DNA from: a virus
Strand: one strand, 5' to 3'
Length of the DNA stretch: 22,491 nucleotides
IMG/VR virus record: IMGVR_UViG_3300036893_000045
Location: 1-22,491 of that record
In this document: positions 4,140-22,259 of the stretch, one piece after another
How the letters are laid out: the number at the start of each line of letters is the position of its first letter
How positions within the stretch are numbered: the first letter of the stretch is position 1
Position numbers and translations under genes: made by a program
The notes under the pieces: generated by a model
Database searches by the model: none
Seen by the model: the letters and a program-made list of their open reading frames with translations, nothing else
What the model was told of the DNA's origin: nothing

Positions 4140-4586
4140 TTATTCGTCCAATCGCTTTGCATAGATGAGGTCTACTAACTCATAGTCTTGTTGTTCTAAA
4201 ATCTTACTCCAATTATGTGCCTTTTTAATATGGTGATAAACAGCCTGGACCCCTTCGTCTCTTAGCTGATCATCACACCATTTGATAAATACTGTTCCAA
4301 AGCCTCGGCGCTCAGGGTCAATAAAGATCACGTCCTGAACAGCCTGAAGAGAATCTTTGTAATGTAGATTTCTCTTAACAAAAAAGAGTGCGTAACCAAG
4401 TAAGCGCCCCTCTTCATTTCTTGCTGTGAACGTTCTTAGATCACCGGCATTTTCAATGGCTTTATAGCGATCGACATCAACGTTAAGTTCAATGTCTTGA
4501 TAGTGAGCGACTTCACGCCAATGGAGATAGAGAAGCTTTTCGGCGTCTTTATAATATGATTCAAATGATTCTTTTTGAAAGTTCAT
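4140..4586 (-). CDS. GNAT-fold N-acetyltransferase-like protein in virion cassette
   Basis: The 148-residue protein has the layout of the GCN5-related N-acetyltransferase fold. Strand beta4 (VIFIDPE, about residues 86-92) leads into the acetyl-CoA pyrophosphate-binding loop RRGFGT (93-98), a form of the R/Q-x-x-G-x-G/A motif, followed by a helix (KWCDDQLRDEG) and the next strand (VQAVYHH). The start overlaps the stop of the upstream tail gene as ATGA, with AAAGGAAAT just before it, so it is translated with the tail genes. T7 gp13, an internal virion protein in the corresponding position, is to my recollection classed in the acetyltransferase clan, so this may be a structural or assembly homologue rather than an enzyme. 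The intact loop leaves catalysis possible. The substrate is unknown. Confidence 0.8.
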   Translation of the reverse strand: MNFQKESFESYYKDAEKLLYLHWREVAHYQDIELNVDVDRYKAIENAGDLRTFTARNEEGRLLGYALFFVKRNLHYKDSLQAVQDVIFIDPERRGFGTVFIKWCDDQLRDEGVQAVYHHIKKAHNWSKILEQQDYELVDLIYAKRLDE

Positions 4587-6583
4587 ATTTCCTTTGCGAA
4601 TAATCTTATATTATTAAGTGTTAGAGAAGGATTTGTACCCGCAACCAAGTAATACACTGTTATCACGTTTAATCCCGCAGGCACCCCATGCATCAATACC
4701 CAAGAAGATCCTGGCGGGAAAAATACGCCAAGAGCGGATGAAGATGCTCCAGCTACTGAGAAATATACCGATCTATTGGAAACTCCGTTTAAATAGTATT
4801 TAATGGTCGCAGAAAAACTAGTTGTAGTACCAGCGGCTTGAACCTGAATGTCACCAACGTTAGTTCCATCCCCTTCTAAACCAACAAGCAGGGTCCTTCC
4901 GGAGCACCATAGAGATGCTGTTAATGCGGCTGAATTTGTATCAATTATTTGAGTAGCAGACGTTTGCGTCCCGCCAGATAGAACGGCAACGGTAGAATGT
5001 GATATCTGATCATGCATAGCGACAACCGGACTTGTAGCGTTGGCATCGTAAAGAATAAGGGGACTAGCTTTCATTTTCTTAATGCTTATTGATTTGTCTG
5101 GAATAAACTCGCCAAGAGTTCCTCCCATTGTTGCATATGCGACAGTGTCGAAGAAGCCAGATGCATTATAAAGAAAAGATCCAATACATCTCCATGTTTG
5201 AGCGGGATGGTAAAACCCCCCTAAGTCAGATCTTTTATTGGGCTGGATAACATCGATCCATGCAACTCCGGTTTGATCTAAATATAAAAAATATGAATTA
5301 GAAGCAGATAGCGTAAGCCCGGATACAAGATCACTTGTATTCCAGCGAAGTTCATCCTTATCAAAAGCAAGATTATTTCCGTAAACATTAATTTGATTAT
5401 TGTCATATTTAGTTCTGTATTCAGTAGAAGAATAATACTCAGGAACGACGTTTGACGATGATGAATAAGCCGCATACGAGTCAAAAGATCTTGCGGCAAC
5501 ACAACCAGAGGTATTAGTTAAGCAGACTCCGACTAAAATGGCATTAGCTATTGCATATGTTGATCCATTTGATTGCTTCCATGTTTGGTTAACGGTGTCA
5601 TACCACATGTCGCCAGAGGCAGATGAAGTTGGCTGCGTTGGGGAATATCTTGGGTGCGTATATACAGCAAGAAGGGCTCCGCCAGTAGTAACATAAATCC
5701 ATATAAGATTCATGAGAATAACGTTGTCACTGTTGTGTAAGCCTATTGCTGGAACTTGGGCATTAGAACTATTAAAGAAAAATCCTCTTTGACAATTATT
5801 GACCTCAATTAATGACGAAGTAACTGTTGGTTTTATATAACCCATAAAATATTCAGTTACCGCAGAGTGAGTATAAGAAAATGCCTGAAAGGTTCCTCCA
5901 ATTCCAGTGATACTTGCTCCAACGGTATTTCCATATATGGAATAATCAGACATGAATCTCTGAGTGCCATCAGCCAGGTTGGCCGATAGATCGGCAATAT
6001 AGGTTCCAAACCCTTGTGTCTTTGCAGATCCATCGGCATTGCTATCATTAATTGCAAATGTGTTTCCTGTAGATGGAGCAAGGGACAGCGTGCCAGACGT
6101 AATATCATTATTAAAAGTATATAACTGGCCGTTAATATATGCCTTAAATGGAGTGACACCACATTTTAAGGTAATTGTTCTTGTAGATCCTCCAGCCGCA
6201 ACTAGATGACCAGGTTGGTTTGTTCCAGAAATCAATGCACCGCTTACAATTCTATTTACAGGTGGAGGCGTAGGGAGAGATGTGTCTATCTCGGATAAAC
6301 TTACTGCGGGGGGATCGTACCAAACATTGTCAGGTCCGCCAATAATGGCATTAAGCTGATAACGAAGTCTTTCAATTTCACCGTTTAAAGACGTGGCTAG
6401 TGACTCTGCTCCAAATGTGCCAGGAGATGTTTGAATCTGCATTTGGGCAACGCTTGCGGACCACCCGGACATTCCTGCAGGCCCAAGATTATTTATGATG
6501 TTGTCAAACTCAGCATTGAGATCTATTGATTGAATAACATCAAGTCCGGTCCATCTTTTTATTCTATTAAATAAACCAGCCAT
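4583..6583 (-). CDS. Tail/virion-associated structural protein, 666 aa
   Basis: The N-terminal 90 residues (FNRIKRWTGLD, then DLNAEFDNIINNL, then GEIERLRYQLNAIIGG) are a helical anchor of a type I recognise from tail-associated proteins of short-tailed phages. After residue 100 the protein becomes beta-rich with many Ser, Thr, Asn and Tyr residues, as in receptor-facing or baseplate-like modules; SGDMWYDTVNQTWKQSNG resembles the short repeats common in tail fibres. It overlaps the upstream nozzle gene by one base (TGATG) and the downstream GNAT gene by four, so it belongs to the tail operon. It probably attaches to the nozzle and decorates the tail. It could be a spike or a fibre adaptor; no enzymatic motif is visible. 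Confidence 0.8.
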   Translation of the reverse strand: MAGLFNRIKRWTGLDVIQSIDLNAEFDNIINNLGPAGMSGWSASVAQMQIQTSPGTFGAESLATSLNGEIERLRYQLNAIIGGPDNVWYDPPAVSLSEIDTSLPTPPPVNRIVSGALISGTNQPGHLVAAGGSTRTITLKCGVTPFKAYINGQLYTFNNDITSGTLSLAPSTGNTFAINDSNADGSAKTQGFGTYIADLSANLADGTQRFMSDYSIYGNTVGASITGIGGTFQAFSYTHSAVTEYFMGYIKPTVTSSLIEVNNCQRGFFFNSSNAQVPAIGLHNSDNVILMNLIWIYVTTGGALLAVYTHPRYSPTQPTSSASGDMWYDTVNQTWKQSNGSTYAIANAILVGVCLTNTSGCVAARSFDSYAAYSSSSNVVPEYYSSTEYRTKYDNNQINVYGNNLAFDKDELRWNTSDLVSGLTLSASNSYFLYLDQTGVAWIDVIQPNKRSDLGGFYHPAQTWRCIGSFLYNASGFFDTVAYATMGGTLGEFIPDKSISIKKMKASPLILYDANATSPVVAMHDQISHSTVAVLSGGTQTSATQIIDTNSAALTASLWCSGRTLLVGLEGDGTNVGDIQVQAAGTTTSFSATIKYYLNGVSNRSVYFSVAGASSSALGVFFPPGSSWVLMHGVPAGLNVITVYYLVAGTNPSLTLNNIRLFAKEI

Positions 6584-10404: not shown

Positions 10405-11352
10405 TCATGTTGAAGTGTAGTGAATGATACGCGCTTCACCAGCTGTGCTAGTGGTCCAAACAACTCCGAACTGAAGGATGCCGTACCAAGCAACATTCTT
10501 TTGACGTCCGAAGTCCTGAGGGATCGCAACGCGAAGTTCAGGATCTTGGCAAACCGCCATGACAACCGGGTCCATACCGAAGAACACGGCTTCACCAGTA
10601 GTGGTTGAAGTTCCTGCGTTCTTCTTAAGAGCGTTGACGTTTGGCGATTCAACGAAACGGATATTCTCAAGTCGACCGATCTCAGCATTATACTTTGCTT
10701 GAGGATCGGTATATTTGAACCATGTTTCCCACGAAGGGTCTTGCTTCACACCGCGAGCGGCGTATGTAGAAACAAGACCAATGTAGTCGTCACCTTCAAA
10801 GGGAGGAACATAGAGAGTTGAATAAAGATAGTCGCGAATTTGTTCAATCGCGTAAAAATTAAGGTTTGCTGTAGCGGCTTGAGTGGCTGTTCCTCCAGTA
10901 TCGAAGTTAACAGATGAAACGCCGGTTTGCTCAACCTTGATTTGACCTGTTTTGAAGGCTGCGGCAGAGGCGTTGTCCATGACAACTTTCATCTGATTCT
11001 TCAGTGCCGCTTGAACAGAGTTTTCGATATTGAACTCTGACAGATCTTCAGAGAGTGATGTGTAAGGCACTGAACGGCCCCACTCAACAACCGTGATGCC
11101 GGTTGTTTGAATGGTCAGGATATCTTCAGGAATCCTGGTCGTTTCAGCAAGGGTCCCGTCCGTGGGAACAGTCAGATTGGATACACGGGTAATTGTGATC
11201 GTGTCGCCTTTCTTGCGGCCATAGCCAGCTTCGGGCTTCACGAATTGCATGAATTTTGTATCGACGATTGCCGCCTGTCTCAGGTCAGAAGATAGCGTAT
11301 GATTTTTATACGTGCCTGAAGGGGCGTCGAATGTCCAAGTCTGCTGAGCCAT
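10405..11352 (-). CDS. Major capsid protein (HK97-fold, N4-gp56-like)
   Basis: The 315-residue protein follows the scaffold gene and has a strong AAGGAG site eight bases before its ATG. Residues 49-60 (GDTITITRVSNL), then LAETTRIPED (68-77), then TGITVVEWGRSVPYT (84-98), and the helix from about 100 to 130, match the pattern of the N4-gp56 family of HK97-fold capsid proteins: an N-terminal arm, an E-loop-like strand pair, and a long spine helix. The C-terminal half (MDPVVMAVCQDPELRVAIPQ, then the IIHYTST end) has the A-domain look of the same family. The protein builds the icosahedral shell. N4-type capsid with T7-like tail order is a mosaic combination. The capsid role is firm; the exact family is moderately sure. 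Confidence 0.85.
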   Translation of the reverse strand: MAQQTWTFDAPSGTYKNHTLSSDLRQAAIVDTKFMQFVKPEAGYGRKKGDTITITRVSNLTVPTDGTLAETTRIPEDILTIQTTGITVVEWGRSVPYTSLSEDLSEFNIENSVQAALKNQMKVVMDNASAAAFKTGQIKVEQTGVSSVNFDTGGTATQAATANLNFYAIEQIRDYLYSTLYVPPFEGDDYIGLVSTYAARGVKQDPSWETWFKYTDPQAKYNAEIGRLENIRFVESPNVNALKKNAGTSTTTGEAVFFGMDPVVMAVCQDPELRVAIPQDFGRQKNVAWYGILQFGVVWTTSTAGEARIIHYTST

Positions 11353-14324: not shown

Positions 14325-15848
14325 TTAGCTGTTCATGCGTGACTGACCATAACTTGGCAGAGGCACGCGTCGTCCTGTACTGTGTCTCATCTGCGTTATT
14401 TTTGAGCATATCATCTGCAAAGCATCGTGAATATGGCTATGCTCGTTCTTAATTGGCCTGATCTTAGCTGGTTCTACCTCCAGAGACTTTTCTGGGTATC
14501 GGTAACCGCCATTAAAACCTTTAACCAGCATGTTACACGCTGGAATGTAGACTTTTAAATTTGGCCCTTCTTTGGTATAGCCCGTCAAGAAATATTCAAC
14601 AGACGTTCTCCTGGACTCCCAAGTTATTTCTCCAGGAATGGTCTGAATCCCTTTTGATTGAAGAATTTGAGCACACGAAGATTCATCGGTGTCTTTCCTG
14701 AACACGCCAGAAGGATCAATGAAGTCTCGCCATTGATTTTTTAGATCAGTCCATCCTGGATATAAAAGTCGGCACTCTCTGAGAACAATGTCGGAGAATC
14801 GCTCTGCTCCCATATTGATGGCAGTAAACTCTTTAAGGACAACAAGTGTCGAGCCTTGAAGCTGACAAACAAGACATGCCGGAGTAAGACCAAAATCCCA
14901 CCCGCGAAGCAAAGGCAGACCCAATATAGGTTTGATTTCTTCTTTTGTTCCATTTTTAGTTTGATCCCAGTCTGGGAATACGGGAAGACCTTCCCATGAT
15001 TCCCAATTAAGTTCGTACTCCATTTGATATTGTCTTGTGGGCATTGATCCCTTAACGGTGTCTTTAAATTCTTTTGTACGCTTAGCGGGGTCTGCTGTGT
15101 AGTGAAGCTGCATGACTGTGAACTTGTTCTTTGGATTTGTCCACAGCTCTACCCCTTGCATTGGGTGTTTTACGTCTCCTGATATTAAAATCTCATCGAG
15201 ATCAAGTTCATCTAAGCGATCATGGACGAGTCTCTTAAAGAAGCCCGGAGCTGGGGAGGAAACAAGACACATGCCGCCTCCTCCTTCGATTGTAGGAAAA
15301 CTCGCACTATACATTTTTTCAGCGTCTTCCCAGAATGCACATTCGTCACCAAAAACTTGAGAGAATGTGTACTGCCGGAGCTGGTCAGCTCCTTGAGGGA
15401 AGCCCTGTATTCTGGACCCAGTTTCTGGGAAATATAAGTTGTTAAATCTATACTCAAACTTTCTAAACTCTGCTGGAATTCTCTCATCGAGATTTTCAAC
15501 GATAAATTTGATTCGCTTGATAAGTTCATCAGCGTCGTCCTCTTTTTTAGAAACCATGGCGATATGTCGATTGAGTTGGAAAAGCCCTGACCAACTATAA
15601 AGCGCGAGCATGGTCCATGAGATCCTCATGCGCCTTGATTTTGGTATCGCTAACAGCCTCTTCTTTTGCCAGAGCTTTGTGAGAAGCTTCAAGTAGTCCA
15701 GGTGAACGGGGAATCTCTTGACTGGCGTTAATGGATCGACCTCGTCTCTTGTGAATACGTAATGTAGGTATTCCCAAGGATCGTTAGCGCATTTAGCGAT
15801 GGCTCCTAGAGTTTCAGTCTCTGAGGGTAGCTTTTTGAGTTCGTCCAT
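14325..15848 (-). CDS. terL: Terminase large subunit
   Basis: The 507-residue protein carries both terminase modules. ATPase: a Walker A-like segment PKSRRMRISW (residues 69-78), Walker B VFGDE (165-169), and a coupling motif containing SS (197-198). Nuclease of RNase H fold: Asp318 in RGWDFG, Asp378 in DFIDPSG and Asp475 in HDALQ give the expected acidic triad. The Walker A lacks the usual G-K-S/T and reads R-x-S, a variant of the degenerate loops seen in some phage terminases. The ATG has only a weak AGG upstream. The enzyme cuts concatemeric DNA and pumps it into the procapsid with TerS and the portal. The call is firm. Confidence 0.95.
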   Translation of the reverse strand: MDELKKLPSETETLGAIAKCANDPWEYLHYVFTRDEVDPLTPVKRFPVHLDYLKLLTKLWQKKRLLAIPKSRRMRISWTMLALYSWSGLFQLNRHIAMVSKKEDDADELIKRIKFIVENLDERIPAEFRKFEYRFNNLYFPETGSRIQGFPQGADQLRQYTFSQVFGDECAFWEDAEKMYSASFPTIEGGGGMCLVSSPAPGFFKRLVHDRLDELDLDEILISGDVKHPMQGVELWTNPKNKFTVMQLHYTADPAKRTKEFKDTVKGSMPTRQYQMEYELNWESWEGLPVFPDWDQTKNGTKEEIKPILGLPLLRGWDFGLTPACLVCQLQGSTLVVLKEFTAINMGAERFSDIVLRECRLLYPGWTDLKNQWRDFIDPSGVFRKDTDESSCAQILQSKGIQTIPGEITWESRRTSVEYFLTGYTKEGPNLKVYIPACNMLVKGFNGGYRYPEKSLEVEPAKIRPIKNEHSHIHDALQMICSKITQMRHSTGRRVPLPSYGQSRMNS

Positions 15849-17177: not shown

Positions 17178-17339
17178 ATTCAGACTCTTGATGAGTACTT
17201 TGATGATCTTCTATATGAGATATGTGTCTCTTGTGGCATGAGTTTCATGATTGAGACCACATCACATAGAGTTATGTGCGTCAAATGCGGGTTTGCTATG
17301 ATCATGCCCGGCGAAGAAGATGTTATGGAGATCCATTGA
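17178..17339 (+). CDS. Small zinc-ribbon protein, non-standard start codon (ATT proposed)
   Basis: This frame is open from inside terS to TGA 17337-17339 and has no ATG, GTG or TTG before its first CxxC. It encodes YEICVSCGMSF, then HRVMCVKCGFAM, then a short acidic tail (GEEDVMEIH). The two CxxC knuckles 18 residues apart form a classic zinc ribbon, so the frame is very likely coding. ATT at 17178 lies six bases after AAGGAAG and would give 53 residues; ATG 17238 would lose the first knuckle. The stop overlaps the next gene's TTG start as TTGA, a typical coupling junction that supports translation here. A sequence error hiding an ATG is possible. Function is unknown; zinc ribbons of this size often bind nucleic acid or RNA polymerase. 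Confidence 0.6.
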   Translation: MQTLDEYFDDLLYEICVSCGMSFMIETTSHRVMCVKCGFAMIMPGEEDVMEIH

Positions 17340-17659
17340 GCCAACCTGCGACGTGCATAGTCTTTTTATACTTACAGGATATATTGGGAAACAATATCAC
17401 ATCTGGCGCATCTTTCTCTGTTCGTGGTGGCGCATTTAAATATGGCGTGAATTTTGTCGATGAGTCTTATTCGTCCACAACATTTGACTCTAACGGCTTT
17501 GCTCAGCTTCAAGTCGTTGAGAGCCAGACTCCTGGGGTCTACTACAACTTTTCAATCTCTTACCCATCAAATAGTTCCGTGAAGCAGATTAACTTTAAGC
17601 CAGTGATGGTTCCAAACCAGGGTGCTGTGAATCTTTGTTCAATAGGGAGTTTTACTTAA
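17336..17659 (+). CDS. Small beta-domain protein (TTR/Ig-like), tail-module paralogue
   Basis: TTG 17336 is preferred as start because GGAG (17327-17330) stands five bases upstream and the start overlaps the preceding stop (TTGA). The upstream ATG at 17276 would add a basic segment encoded by sequence that already codes the zinc ribbon in another frame. The 107-residue product is one beta-sandwich-like domain: CIVFLYLQDILGN near the N-terminus, DSNGFAQLQV mid-way, ESQTPG, and FKPVMVPNQGA near the end. The same landmarks occur in residues 155-264 of the next protein, so the two are duplicates. The xVxxYLxDxxGN opening recalls transthyretin/carboxypeptidase-regulatory folds. Probably a fibre or recognition accessory protein. 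Confidence 0.7.
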   Translation: MSQPATCIVFLYLQDILGNNITSGASFSVRGGAFKYGVNFVDESYSSTTFDSNGFAQLQVVESQTPGVYYNFSISYPSNSSVKQINFKPVMVPNQGAVNLCSIGSFT

Positions 17660-17660
17660 T

Positions 17661-18887
17661 ATGGCAACAACGACGACACCGATATTTTACAACACCACAT
17701 CGGGATTCACTTTAAGTGACTCAAATAAAATTCAAATCCTAGCTTCCACTGCGAATCTCATAAATAATTCTGGATATTCTGAAGCAAATCCCAATATTCT
17801 TTCATCGTTTCAAATGCAGGCTTCTGCGCTTTCAGCATTTTCAGAAACGGCTTCATATAGTGGGAGTGACAATGTCCAATACACAATTCTTATCAATGGT
17901 GCTGATTATTATTGGAATGGGAGTGGCTGGGTTACAAGTAATGGGACCTATTCACAAAGTAATACAGCTTCTGTTATCAATAGCAATTGCGGTAGTAGTT
18001 CTCTTGCTACTATTCTCGGGACTGGCTCTTACGTTCAGATCAGAGCTTTCCTGCACTCAGCCTCAGGAACAACCACTCCAACCCTCACGTCAATCGCCGT
18101 CACTTACACCTTCGCGGCCATCAGACCTTCAAACCCTGCCCAATGTACCGTCTGGGTCTACCTCGAAGACATACTGGGAAATATAGTTGGCAGCGTACAA
18201 AATGCGTCGCTTGGGGTAAGTCAAAAAGATCCCTTTATTTATGGTCAATTTGTCGTTGCTCCGTTTACAAAATCTGTGGCGTTCAATTCCAGTGGTTATG
18301 CACAAATCATTTTAGACGAAACTCAAACACCTGGTTATTCGGTGCAGTTTTCAATTACATATCAAACTAATAGTACGATAAAACAAATTAGCTTCATTCC
18401 TTGCGTAGTTCCAAATGCTGGGGCGTGCGCTTTGACTTCAATTACCACCTTTGAAAACAAAACAGCAACAGTGACTCCGATCACTGGAAATAACTCAATC
18501 ACTCCTGTTGAGACTCAAGTGGTGATTTCAAACAATGTGACCTCAATTCCAATTGCTAGTCTTAATTTTAGTCCTGCCACATTTAGTGAAGTGGAGATCT
18601 GGCTCAATATCAGACGACAGACCAGTAATAATTTTTTTAGATTTATTGGCAGAGCCTACTTAACCTGGAGCCAGACCACAAGTTTATGGTCATTAACTCT
18701 CATTGGAGATACTGGTTCTTCTGGACCAATAACTGGAGTTTCTCTCGCAGTTTCAACTGGAGCTGGACCGTATTATCTTCCGACAATTTCATATACTTCT
18801 GATGATGCTACCAATAGTGGAGCTTATACGAATTATATCGGGACGATGAGATATAAAATCATGAACACATTTCTCCTTGAGCAGTAA
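17661..18887 (+). CDS. Multidomain fibre/recognition protein, 408 aa
   Basis: Three parts are visible. Residues 1-152 form a beta-rich lectin-like module (YTILINGADYYWNGSGWVTS, then VQIRAFLHS, then LTSIAVTYTF), a pattern I associate with phage and cell-surface binding domains. Residues 155-264 are a second copy of the domain that makes up the whole preceding protein (CTVWVYLEDILGN, then SSGYAQIILDETQTPG, then CVVPNAGA). Residues 270-408 are another Ser/Thr-rich beta module with no named match. There is no signal peptide. The gene starts two bases after the preceding stop, with GGGAG 11 bases upstream. The context is a receptor-binding module transcribed opposite to the packaging and virion block. 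Role inferred: tail fibre or fibre adaptor. Confidence 0.75.
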   Translation: MATTTTPIFYNTTSGFTLSDSNKIQILASTANLINNSGYSEANPNILSSFQMQASALSAFSETASYSGSDNVQYTILINGADYYWNGSGWVTSNGTYSQSNTASVINSNCGSSSLATILGTGSYVQIRAFLHSASGTTTPTLTSIAVTYTFAAIRPSNPAQCTVWVYLEDILGNIVGSVQNASLGVSQKDPFIYGQFVVAPFTKSVAFNSSGYAQIILDETQTPGYSVQFSITYQTNSTIKQISFIPCVVPNAGACALTSITTFENKTATVTPITGNNSITPVETQVVISNNVTSIPIASLNFSPATFSEVEIWLNIRRQTSNNFFRFIGRAYLTWSQTTSLWSLTLIGDTGSSGPITGVSLAVSTGAGPYYLPTISYTSDDATNSGAYTNYIGTMRYKIMNTFLLEQ

Positions 18888-18904: not shown

Positions 18905-18937
18905 GCTCCCGAAAAGAAGGTACACTGGAAAGGGAGC
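18905..18937 (+). promoter_or_regulatory. Inverted repeat covering the fibre gene ribosome-binding site
   Basis: GCTCCC (18905-18910) is perfectly complementary to GGGAGC (18932-18937), with a 21-base loop. The right arm contains the GGGAG ribosome-binding site of the 888-residue gene at 18942. If folded in mRNA, the stem would hide the site and could delay or condition translation. A six-base GC-rich stem is modest, so chance remains possible. Confidence 0.35.
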
Positions 18938-18941
18938 ATCT

Positions 18942-21608
18942 ATGAAATTCCTCGTCATTGCCCTCACCCTCCTCATTGCATCTATGTCCCAGGGACAACA
19001 AGCCACCTTTCCCTTACTCAAGGCTGGAGATTATTCCCCCATAAACTCTAGCGCCCAACTTGAAGTAAAAAGCACTTCCCTGGGATTTCTTTTACCTCGT
19101 ATGACCACAACCCAGAAGAATGCGATTTCTTCGCCATCCGCTGGTCTTCAGGTTTACGACACAACTCTTGGGGCTGTATGTGAATACAATGGCTCTTCTT
19201 GGCAAACTCTTTCTACGTTCTTAAGTCCAATGACTACTGCTGGAGATATGATTTATGAGAATGGAACTCCTACAGCGGCGCGATTGGCTATTGGCACCAC
19301 TGGACAAGTACTAAATGTTAATTCTTCTGGCTTTCCAGGGTGGACCACAAATATTTTTGGTAATGCTTCAAATGTAACTGGAATTGTCGCTGTATCAAAT
19401 GGTGGAACCGGCAACACTACCACTCAAGCGGCATTCAACAATTTATCTCCCACTACGACTAAGGGAGATATGATTTACTATGATGGTTCAAATGATTCTC
19501 GTCTGGCTCCTGGAACAACCAATCAAATTTTAAACATGTCTGGTGGTGTTCCCGCTTGGACCTCAACTTTTACTGGTAATGTAACTGGAAATGCTTCAAC
19601 AGCCACTGCTCTTGCGGCTTCCCCTTCGCCTTGTCCATCGAATCAATATTCAACCGGTATTGCGGCAAACGGCAATGCAAGCTGCTCTCAGGTCGCATAC
19701 TCACAATTGACTGGGACGCCAACGCCAGTTCCAACCCCTTTTGTTTTAAGGGCTGGAGATACAATGACCGGCACTTTAACCGTCCAAACTTCTAATGATT
19801 TTCTTGATGGAATAGACAGCTCCAGTACCAACTGGATAAAAATTGATTCTGGCGGGAATGTCACAAGTCGCGGAGGAATTTTATCCCTTGGAAACACTGT
19901 GGTGTCTAGGGCTGGTATTATAAATCTAAATGGTGGGACATCAGGAACTATAACGATTCAACCACAATCAGCCGCAGGAACATACAATTTTAATTTGCCT
20001 ATAAGCGTTGGATCTTCGAATAGCGTCTTAGCTTCAGGCGGTGGCGGATCTACTGCCATGACTTGGATTCCTGTAACAGAAAATGAAACCGCATCTACGC
20101 TTGTATATCGAGGTCCAGATGGAATAGGACTTATCGGTGTCGGTGGAAGCAATGGCATTTTCTTCGACTCAAATCCCTCTGCAAATAATTATGCAGGAAT
20201 GGCACTTACTGGCAGCACATCCTATACCATTTTGAATGCCCCAGGGGCTTCTGGCGTTGATTATTTCAGAGCAAACAACGTCACCATGGGGTCGGCAACA
20301 GGTGGAACCGGATGGACATTTAATTTGCCAGCTACTTTTGGAGTTAATGCAACAACTCAAGGTTCTATCTCTATTGCGAATAGCGCCACACTCGGAACAT
20401 CAATAACCATTTTAAATCTTGGCAATACGACGGCATATAATTTTGATCTACCCACTACCGCTGGAAATTCTGGACAGGTTCTTACTTCAGCAGGTGGCAC
20501 CGCTTCCATGACATGGACAAGCCCATTAACAAATCCCATGACAGGAACTGGAGACATGATTATCGGTGGATCTTCCGGTTCGGCGACGAGGCTTGCCGCT
20601 GGCTCTACTGGTGCGATATTGAATATGTCTTCCGGAAGTCCAACTTGGCTATCTGTCGGCACAAGCGGACAGGTCCTTACCATGCAAGGAGTGCCAACAT
20701 GGTCTAGTGGCTCTTATACAGCTCCAACCACGCAAAGATTTACATCAAACATTTTATCAACGGGAGGTAGTACCGCCAATACCACTGCCTGTATAACTAG
20801 TCTTGGTTCTACGGCTGGCATAGTGGTTGGGGCCTATGTTTACGACACAAAAACTCCTGCAGCTATTACGGCAGGAACTGCGGTTACAGCTATTGGAACT
20901 TGTGGTTCTGGTCCAAGTAATAGCGTCACAATAAGCGTTGCAGCCGGAGCCACAACTCAAGGAGATACATTTCAATTTGGAGGAGTGTATTCCATGCCCA
21001 CAAACCCCGCACCTCTTTACATTACCGTGGAAGGCGTGGGCTCTGGCGGAGGAGGATCTGGCGGTGGTGGCTCTCCAGGACTAGGAATAGGCAATACTTC
21101 TTATAGTGCTACTTTTTTTGGCTCATCCGGGGCCAATCAAAATGTACTCAATGGAGGTGGTGGTGGCACGGTCCTCGCTACCGCAGCTGCTGGCGGAGCG
21201 TGTACGCTTGGAACCGCTTCAAATTACACAACGCTTCTTTCGTTTGCTGGAGGAGCCGGAAGCCCCTCTACTACTAACGGTGTAAGTGGTACTTCCTTTG
21301 GTGGCGGTCCTGGCGGAGTTTCATTTTTTGGCGGCGCAGGTGCCGCAGGCTATACGTCATCATCTGCCCCAGTAGATGCCCAGCCCAACTCTGGCTCTGG
21401 TGGCGGCGGCGGTGGCAGCGGAACAAACAATGACGGTGGCGGGGGCGGAGCTGCTGGTTGTTATGCAAAAATTCAGATTGGAGCTACCACAACTACATAT
21501 CCATGGATTCTTGGTATAGGAGGCACAGGTGGTGCGACAGGAACATCTGGAACCAAGGGTTCAAGAGGAGGAGATGGATTCCTTTTGATCAGACAATATT
21601 TTCAGTAA
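18942..21608 (+). CDS. Large repetitive fibre/adhesin with signal peptide and polyglycine tip
   Basis: The 888-residue protein begins MKFLVIALTLLIASMSQG, a textbook Sec signal peptide (basic n-region, hydrophobic core, likely cleavage near residue 18), followed by LEVKSTSLGFLLPRMTTTQK (40-59), a domain of secreted bacterial surface proteins. Then come repeats of the form GDMIYx, xARLAxGTTGQxLN, PxWT (about 101-135, 175-207 and 536-590), a GGTG motif (154-157), and AGDTMTGTLTV (271-281), all known from phage fibres. From about residue 683 (YSMPTNPAPLYITVEGVGSG) a Gly-rich domain with GGGG runs forms the C-terminus, like polyglycine-II tips or Gly_rich_2-type domains. GGGAG precedes the ATG. 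It may be a host-recognition fibre or a phage-encoded surface protein exported by the host. Confidence 0.85.
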   Translation: MKFLVIALTLLIASMSQGQQATFPLLKAGDYSPINSSAQLEVKSTSLGFLLPRMTTTQKNAISSPSAGLQVYDTTLGAVCEYNGSSWQTLSTFLSPMTTAGDMIYENGTPTAARLAIGTTGQVLNVNSSGFPGWTTNIFGNASNVTGIVAVSNGGTGNTTTQAAFNNLSPTTTKGDMIYYDGSNDSRLAPGTTNQILNMSGGVPAWTSTFTGNVTGNASTATALAASPSPCPSNQYSTGIAANGNASCSQVAYSQLTGTPTPVPTPFVLRAGDTMTGTLTVQTSNDFLDGIDSSSTNWIKIDSGGNVTSRGGILSLGNTVVSRAGIINLNGGTSGTITIQPQSAAGTYNFNLPISVGSSNSVLASGGGGSTAMTWIPVTENETASTLVYRGPDGIGLIGVGGSNGIFFDSNPSANNYAGMALTGSTSYTILNAPGASGVDYFRANNVTMGSATGGTGWTFNLPATFGVNATTQGSISIANSATLGTSITILNLGNTTAYNFDLPTTAGNSGQVLTSAGGTASMTWTSPLTNPMTGTGDMIIGGSSGSATRLAAGSTGAILNMSSGSPTWLSVGTSGQVLTMQGVPTWSSGSYTAPTTQRFTSNILSTGGSTANTTACITSLGSTAGIVVGAYVYDTKTPAAITAGTAVTAIGTCGSGPSNSVTISVAAGATTQGDTFQFGGVYSMPTNPAPLYITVEGVGSGGGGSGGGGSPGLGIGNTSYSATFFGSSGANQNVLNGGGGGTVLATAAAGGACTLGTASNYTTLLSFAGGAGSPSTTNGVSGTSFGGGPGGVSFFGGAGAAGYTSSSAPVDAQPNSGSGGGGGGSGTNNDGGGGGAAGCYAKIQIGATTTTYPWILGIGGTGGATGTSGTKGSRGGDGFLLIRQYFQ

Positions 21609-22007: not shown

Positions 22008-22259
22008 ATGACCAATCTCGCTCGTTTCATTAAAAATCGTAGAGAATCCATGGGGATTTCACAAGGAAAACTTGGTGAAGCTCTAGGATTTAAAAACGGA
22101 CAATTCATCTCAAATATTGAGATAAGCCGCGATATTCAGTATCCTGTGAAGTACTTTAAGAAGATTTCCAAGATTCTGAACGTATCAATTTCAGAACTTA
22201 TCCCACTAGCTGCGTCTGACTACATCACATGGCTTGAGAGGCAAATCTATGGCAAATGA
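22008..22259 (+). CDS. XRE-family helix-turn-helix regulator
   Basis: The 83-residue protein is almost entirely one Cro/CI-type DNA-binding domain: FIKNRRESMGISQGKLGEAL (residues 7-26) gives the first helices and the Q-x-x-L positioning helix, GFKNGQFISNIE (27-38) the recognition helix, and KKISKILNVSISELIP (51-66) the closing helices. There is no cleavage or oligomerisation domain, so it is Cro-like in size. GGAG stands nine bases before the ATG, and the gene sits behind a candidate operator. It may control its own promoter and the divergent gene; a lysogeny switch is possible but no integrase or second repressor is visible. It overlaps the next gene by 11 bases. Confidence 0.85.
   Translation: MTNLARFIKNRRESMGISQGKLGEALGFKNGQFISNIEISRDIQYPVKYFKKISKILNVSISELIPLAASDYITWLERQIYGK

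Follow-up and report, generated by a model that had tools for sequence, protein, structure and literature searches.

A phage-encoded fibre-like protein with a predicted Sec signal peptide, and its kinship with the surface fibres of Bdellovibrio

The P0001 locus

The window, meaning the whole stretch of DNA analysed here, is a 22,491-bp linear IMG/VR record whose minus strand carries an SU10-like portal, a terminase, a capsid and podovirus-type tail genes. On the plus strand, beside a 408-aa structural-type protein, lies the gene for the fibre-like protein P0001. The features are:

4583-6583, minus: gp666, a conserved tail-associated protein (homologues in 35 related loci)
10405-11352, minus: major capsid protein (capsid similarity), the query for finding the phage family
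12384-14312, minus: portal, SU10-like (profile match)
14325-15848, minus: terminase large subunit (profile match)
17661-18887, plus: neighbour protein, 408 aa, structural-type, without a signal peptide (homologues in L008, L010 and L032)
18930-18936, plus: Shine-Dalgarno-like AAGGGAG (direct reading)
18942-21608, plus: P0001 coding sequence, an 888-aa, probably exported fibre-like protein (ORF list and translation)
18942-18995, plus: signal peptide of P0001, residues 1-18, cleavage predicted between SQG and QQA (rule-based scorer)
19041-19217, plus: LPRMTT fibre module, residues 34-92 (alignments, structure model, Foldseek)
19227-19355, plus: GDMIY repeat 1, residues 96-138 (sequence; matches fibres of L002, L003 and L043)
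19362-19688, plus: GGTG/GDMIY shaft segment, residues 141-249, common to chromosomal MAT-type (mosaic adhesive trimer) fibres of Bdellovibrionota
20526-20654, plus: third GDMI(I) repeat, residues 529-571 (sequence)
20967-21605, plus: Gly-rich tip, residues 676-888, common to the L032 signal-peptide fibre, the L022 tail protein and exported host proteins

The same strand also holds a 127-aa ORF with a GTG start (17276-17659), which looks partly paralogous to one domain in the 408-aa neighbour (a duplication or truncated copy), and a small HTH regulator (HTH_3; 22008-22259) adjoining the P0001 gene. The terminase large subunit is a single ORF in 45 relatives and is split into two ORFs in L008, L010, L029, L038, L042, L043, L051 and L057; the split point is approximately constant (residues ~213-229 of the window protein, close to the ATPase/nuclease border), with several overlaps of 4-14 nt.

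The P0001 reading frame extends exactly from 18942 to 21608 (+). Its ATG follows the AAGGGAG by approximately 5 nt, and the next methionine, at residue 15, is without a comparable ribosome-binding site. The N-terminus has a lysine at position 2, a hydrophobic run of 12-13 residues and small residues at -3 and -1 (SQG, then QQ), and the predicted Sec-type signal peptide is MKFLVIALTLLIASMSQG, followed by QQ. Using a rule-based scorer that looks for a positive n-region, an uncharged h-region with a mean hydropathy of at least 2 and small -3/-1 residues, P0001 scored 4.8 (cut-off 4.0). At this cut-off, 25 of 1,144 gene starts in related phages were positive versus 5 of 5,092 internal-methionine stretches, which puts the call for P0001 far above chance. 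A lipobox with Cys at +1 is absent (the site reads SQG-QQA, and the first 79 residues are Cys-free). Cysteine content, taken as a possible pointer to an oxidising destination, was 0.84 versus 0.60 per 100 aa. Further along lie LPRMTT (at about residues 51-56), two copies of GDMIY and a third in the form GDMII, VSNGGTG, AGDTMTG and a C-terminal polyglycine. The combination that the original prediction had described in one 888-residue protein (signal peptide, LPRMTT, GDMIY/GGTG/AGDTMTG repeats and polyglycine) is therefore borne out by the reading frame, its ribosome-binding site, the score of 4.8 and the motifs themselves.

Modules shared with phages and bacteria

Searches with P0001 gave no match in Pfam or PHROGs, nor did a sequence search of the PDB; the homologous tip of a host protein (L318) matches Pfam Gly_rich_2 slightly under the cut-off. 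Structure prediction, which had been proposed as a check, gave a good model for the core of the LPRMTT module and a poor one for the tip. In the model of this ~50-residue module, the core reached a pLDDT of at least 90 over 36 residues, and the best PDB match found by Foldseek was the tailspike TSP3 of phage CBA120 (31% identity, E 0.03, probability 1.0); Mtd and collagen trimerisation domains matched less well, and the E-values overall were marginal to non-significant. Among predicted viral proteins, the matches to the model were phage fibres. The model of the Gly-rich tip had a pLDDT of 52 and was left unused.

The original description of LPRMTT as a surface-protein domain has to be given up, as the module is frequent within ordinary phage fibres and is common to virions and exported bacterial proteins. 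Ordinary LPRMTT fibres, such as those of Leptolyngbya phage Lbo-JY46 and uncultured phage LR756501, resemble P0001 in carrying the module within a fibre-like protein, but they have no signal peptide and the module is internal or C-terminal. None of the module's 80 best viral homologues (19 of them 5'-incomplete) has a signal peptide, versus 62 of the 80 best from bacterial genomes, where the module mostly stands directly after it. These bacterial homologues are mostly from Bacteroidota, and two, L205 and L209, are from Bdellovibrionales. L205 is a chromosomal MAT-type fibre with LPRMTT and GGTG modules, and L209 is a fibre in a siphophage- or myophage-type prophage. The signal and LPRMTT region of L209 can be aligned to P0001 starting at residue 3 (44%, E 7e-17), its C-terminal tip is common to podovirus L014 (E ~1e-21), and other pieces are common to L082, L044 and L043. 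The comparison of phages with chromosomes suggested at the outset thus places signal-bearing LPRMTT proteins in bacterial genomes, and also in prophages of Bdellovibrionota.

MAT fibres of Bdellovibrio bacteriovorus are phage-fibre-like trimers with signal peptides, displayed on the predator surface, and one of them binds prey glycans (PMC10769870). P0001 shares with them the signal peptide, a repetitive phage-fibre-like shaft and exchangeable tips, and segments of its shaft are 33-60% identical in chromosomal MAT-type proteins. The matches fall only in the LPRMTT/shaft part (aa ~388-517 of L303, L305, L297 and L309; 346-606 of L205). Unlike MATs, P0001 is phage-encoded and lacks the ~130-aa beta-rich MAT domain (LTYQGRI-type) after the signal; given that this N-terminal domain defines MATs, we do not file P0001 among them. 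As to the trimeric beta-prism shaft of MATs, the shaft of P0001 is similar in sequence, and the LPRMTT model, a monomer model only, resembles tailspike and trimerisation folds. Judging from these sequence likenesses, P0001 is probably trimeric and probably works like a MAT fibre.

Matches to P0001 were found in 26 of 340 Bdellovibrionota genomes and covered LPRMTT, the shaft (141-249) and the tip (676-888), the last in three. Among 248 Bacteroidota genomes, nearly all matches were to the N-terminal module, with short repeat matches elsewhere in one genome; one of 249 Pseudomonadota genomes matched, the centre genome only. Based on the segments found in Bdellovibrionota genomes, and on the links to Bdellovibrio phages and prophages described below, Bdellovibrionota are quite probably the hosts of the podovirus, although the LPRMTT module is a pointer to Bacteroidota as well. 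Lysis lipoproteins and holins, considered as host markers, gave no clear families in common with the podoviruses.

Some Bdellovibrionota chromosomal proteins end in a Gly-rich tip of the P0001 type (L315 5375-6412, L316 4967-6013, L318 6220-7110). Proteins of this kind mostly have a signal peptide, with a coiled coil or short stalk, and one genome has two paralogues. The genes of the exported proteins in L315 and L318 have ordinary chromosomal neighbours, and L316 and L317 are similar.

Signal-peptide fibres in related phages

To sample the phage family we took capsid-similar contigs, the best 80 of 116. About a dozen of these ~80 carry signal-peptide fibre-like genes. Large ones occur in L014, L032, L034, L043, L044, L057 and L058, and inspection added those of L049 (whose true start is 30 codons inside the automatic call), L055 and L082; several shorter genes with signal peptides are found in L008. 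Four more signal-peptide genes lie on the plus strand of L008 (3-701, 711-1184, 7796-8635 and 8644-9054); TerS and TerL flank two of these. The N-termini of the podovirus signal-peptide fibres are largely unrelated, and so the signal function appears to be kept without a single common sequence.

Ordinary virion tail fibres assemble in the cytoplasm and hence have no signal peptide. When fibre-like genes of 300 aa or more were counted uniformly, a signal peptide was found, as in P0001, in 8 of 72 from the podovirus family, versus none of 75 from other viral contigs and none of 11 from control phages; it was also found in four of seven phage and prophage fibre genes of Bdellovibrionota, those four having been picked for carrying one. 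For the pooled groups the enrichment has a Fisher p of ~9e-5. Mapped onto the capsid tree, the trait requires eight changes, at least four of them forced by well-supported branches, and has therefore been repeatedly gained, lost or swapped; as it is not clustered, it defines no clade. Many capsid relatives are without such a fibre, a scatter that counts against the exported-fibre reading.

The cultured Bdellovibrio phage compared was phi1422, phi1402 and MAC3UK being left out; the record NC_015585, tried as phi1402, turned out to be another phage. The phi1422 gp68 (JQ177062, 'hypothetical protein') is a 614-aa protein with a predicted signal peptide, encoded directly after the tail-fibre gene gp67. 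Similar to P0001, it combines a signal peptide with a fibre-like body beside a tail-fibre gene, but the body sequence is different, and its link to the family is not direct and runs through a prophage of Bdellovibrio UBA4095 and podovirus L014. This phi1422-like prophage has a gp68 homologue in a conserved gene order, with ~35-37% identity where the two align, and this signal-peptide fibre aligns from residue 1 with L014 (~379 aa, 27%, E 8e-13). In L314, another Bdellovibrionota prophage, the signal-peptide fibre and residues 22-138 of P0001 share 35% identity (E 3e-14). No signal-peptide fibre was found in four sister phages of phi1422, from Vibrio, Aeromonas, Pectobacterium and Iodobacter hosts. 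The 170-aa gp75 of phi1422 (L313 44298-44810, plus) likewise has an N-terminal signal peptide, and it is weakly similar to an L037 protein. We propose a class of signal-peptide fibres of Bdellovibrionota phages, having a signal, a repetitive body and a swappable tip and lying in the structural region of a tailed phage; P0001 fits this class.

The signal-bearing fibres of L034, L049, L058, L055, L032 and L057 have a common 'IFxGSxVKxL'-type module, L034 and L049 beginning with the signal peptide and then '(A)AxIFSGSDVKxLK'. The fibre of L040 begins 'M SAVIFKGNKVASLK', with a strong Shine-Dalgarno sequence and a stop six codons upstream, and that of L007 is alike; in both, the native start of a fibre without a signal coincides with the predicted mature N-terminus of its signal-bearing homologues. 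Hidden upstream signals in these two are ruled out by in-frame stops upstream. The L058 and L055 signals are identical at 7 of 17 positions and the residues that follow at 47 of 57; for L034 and L049 the values are 6 of 21 for the signal and 14 of 20 for the mature part. The signal appears to behave as an add-on in a Bdellovibrionota prophage as well, where L350 (8127-9266, plus) has an LPRMTT fibre without a signal in the place of the exported one of L355.

Divergence of this kind fits signal peptides and would not be expected from a structural helix. Given that the signals diverge while the mature N-termini stay conserved, that L040 and L007 start at the cleavage point of the others, and that LPRMTT usually follows a signal peptide in bacterial chromosomes and never in the best 80 other viral homologues, a Sec export signal at the N-terminus of P0001 is well supported. 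The original prediction had offered, besides a host-exported fibre, a hydrophobic N-terminus anchoring a virion fibre, that is, an uncleaved tail-attachment or membrane-anchoring helix. The fibre modules are indeed typical of virions, and cleavage of P0001 is predicted from sequence. We nevertheless regard such a helix as improbable, since the mature module is where homologues without the stretch start, the stretch is poorly conserved beside a conserved module, and cleavage-like motifs follow it in otherwise unrelated proteins. The exported fibre is thus the part of the original interpretation that is supported; the virion anchor is disfavoured, and the surface-domain assignment of LPRMTT is not upheld.

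Proposed export and possible uses

We propose that P0001 is a phage-encoded, Sec-exported, MAT-like fibre that reaches the envelope or outside of a Bdellovibrionota host, and put the probability of this reading, host included, at roughly 65%. The protein would be made with its signal peptide, probably late in infection given the gene neighbourhood, and the Sec machinery of the host would export it. After cleavage of the signal, the LPRMTT module and GDMIY/GGTG shaft would bring three chains together, as in MAT fibres, and the fibre would arrive at the envelope or exterior of the infected predator by the route of the host MATs. There, the exchangeable tip may bind surface glycans or receptors. 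The occurrence of such signal-bearing fibres in other Bdellovibrio phages and prophages suggests that these viruses place a fibre at the surface of the infected cell or beyond it, either in addition to one on the virion or in its stead.

As to its use, we tentatively put first that the fibre covers the receptors used by the phage itself, on the infected cell as well as on daughter cells and debris, and would thereby lessen re-adsorption of progeny. Most exclusion proteins are early genes, and the late-operon position of P0001 differs. Sister phages carry the tips of P0001 and L034 on their gp666-type tail proteins, so that the exported fibre and the virion may have recognition targets in common, gp666 being a separate protein and the likelier virion receptor-binding protein. 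In T5, the receptor-binding protein pb5 blocks infection when added, and exclusion proteins help phages to re-adsorb less to infected cells and to fragments of cells (PMC9586334). The T5 proteins Llp/Cor are phage-encoded, exported and act on the phage's own receptor, the last being only proposed for P0001, but they are small lipoproteins, whereas P0001 is an 888-aa fibre without a lipobox cysteine (PMC9586334). The common tips, the blocking by pb5 and the exclusion proteins lead us to favour receptor masking slightly over prey binding, which we rank in turn above loading onto virions.

Prey binding, a possible but less likely use, would mean that a fibre on the infected predator binds prey and aids the entry into prey needed for phage growth. 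Shaft segments common to surface-displayed MAT fibres, one of them binding prey glycans (PMC10769870), and a tip common to the exported host proteins L315-L318 agree with such a conversion of prey range; the late-gene neighbourhood does not. Neither does the apparently lytic nature of the podovirus family, suggested by a capsid scan of ~85,000 bacterial genomes in which no relatives (prophages) were found at the sensitivity of the search used. A precedent for tail-type phage proteins ending on the host surface as adhesins is PblA/PblB of Streptococcus mitis phage SM1, although these reach the surface of a Gram-positive host via holin/lysin permeabilisation (PMC2920869).

It is rather unlikely that P0001 is a virion fibre with an export step, maturing in the periplasm and joining virions at lysis, and so still a receptor-binding protein. 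The genes of such fibres do adjoin terminase genes or end tail operons (phi1422 gp67-gp68, L355, L314, L357), tips are common to gp666-type tail proteins, and the signal-less homologues in L040 and L007, with the L350 fibre, are presumably virion proteins. However, tail assembly is cytoplasmic and a conserved, separate tail protein, gp666, is already present; we know of no tailed phage that loads Sec-exported fibres. Least probable of all is that the gene was lately acquired from a bacterial exported adhesin and that its signal does nothing for the phage. Although a signal peptide with LPRMTT close behind is the usual bacterial architecture, signal-peptide fibres with different N-termini are found in about a dozen of the relatives, as well as in two or more further phage lineages, and signal function is retained despite sequence divergence.

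Tail-fibre-like proteins are assumed to remain cytoplasmic until assembly. A Sec-tagged class of fibres, if true, would be a new means for a phage to remodel the host surface, one that recurs in several unrelated Bdellovibrionota-linked phages and was already present, previously unnoticed, in the cultured phi1422. It is conceivable, though doubtful, that predator phages equip infected predators with exported MAT-like fibres that alter adhesion, and that host MATs arose from, or swap modules with, phage genes. The exported fibres would form a bridge between phage fibres and the prey-recognising MAT fibres of Bdellovibrio, and a phage origin of MATs would therefore be testable with an existing phage-host pair.
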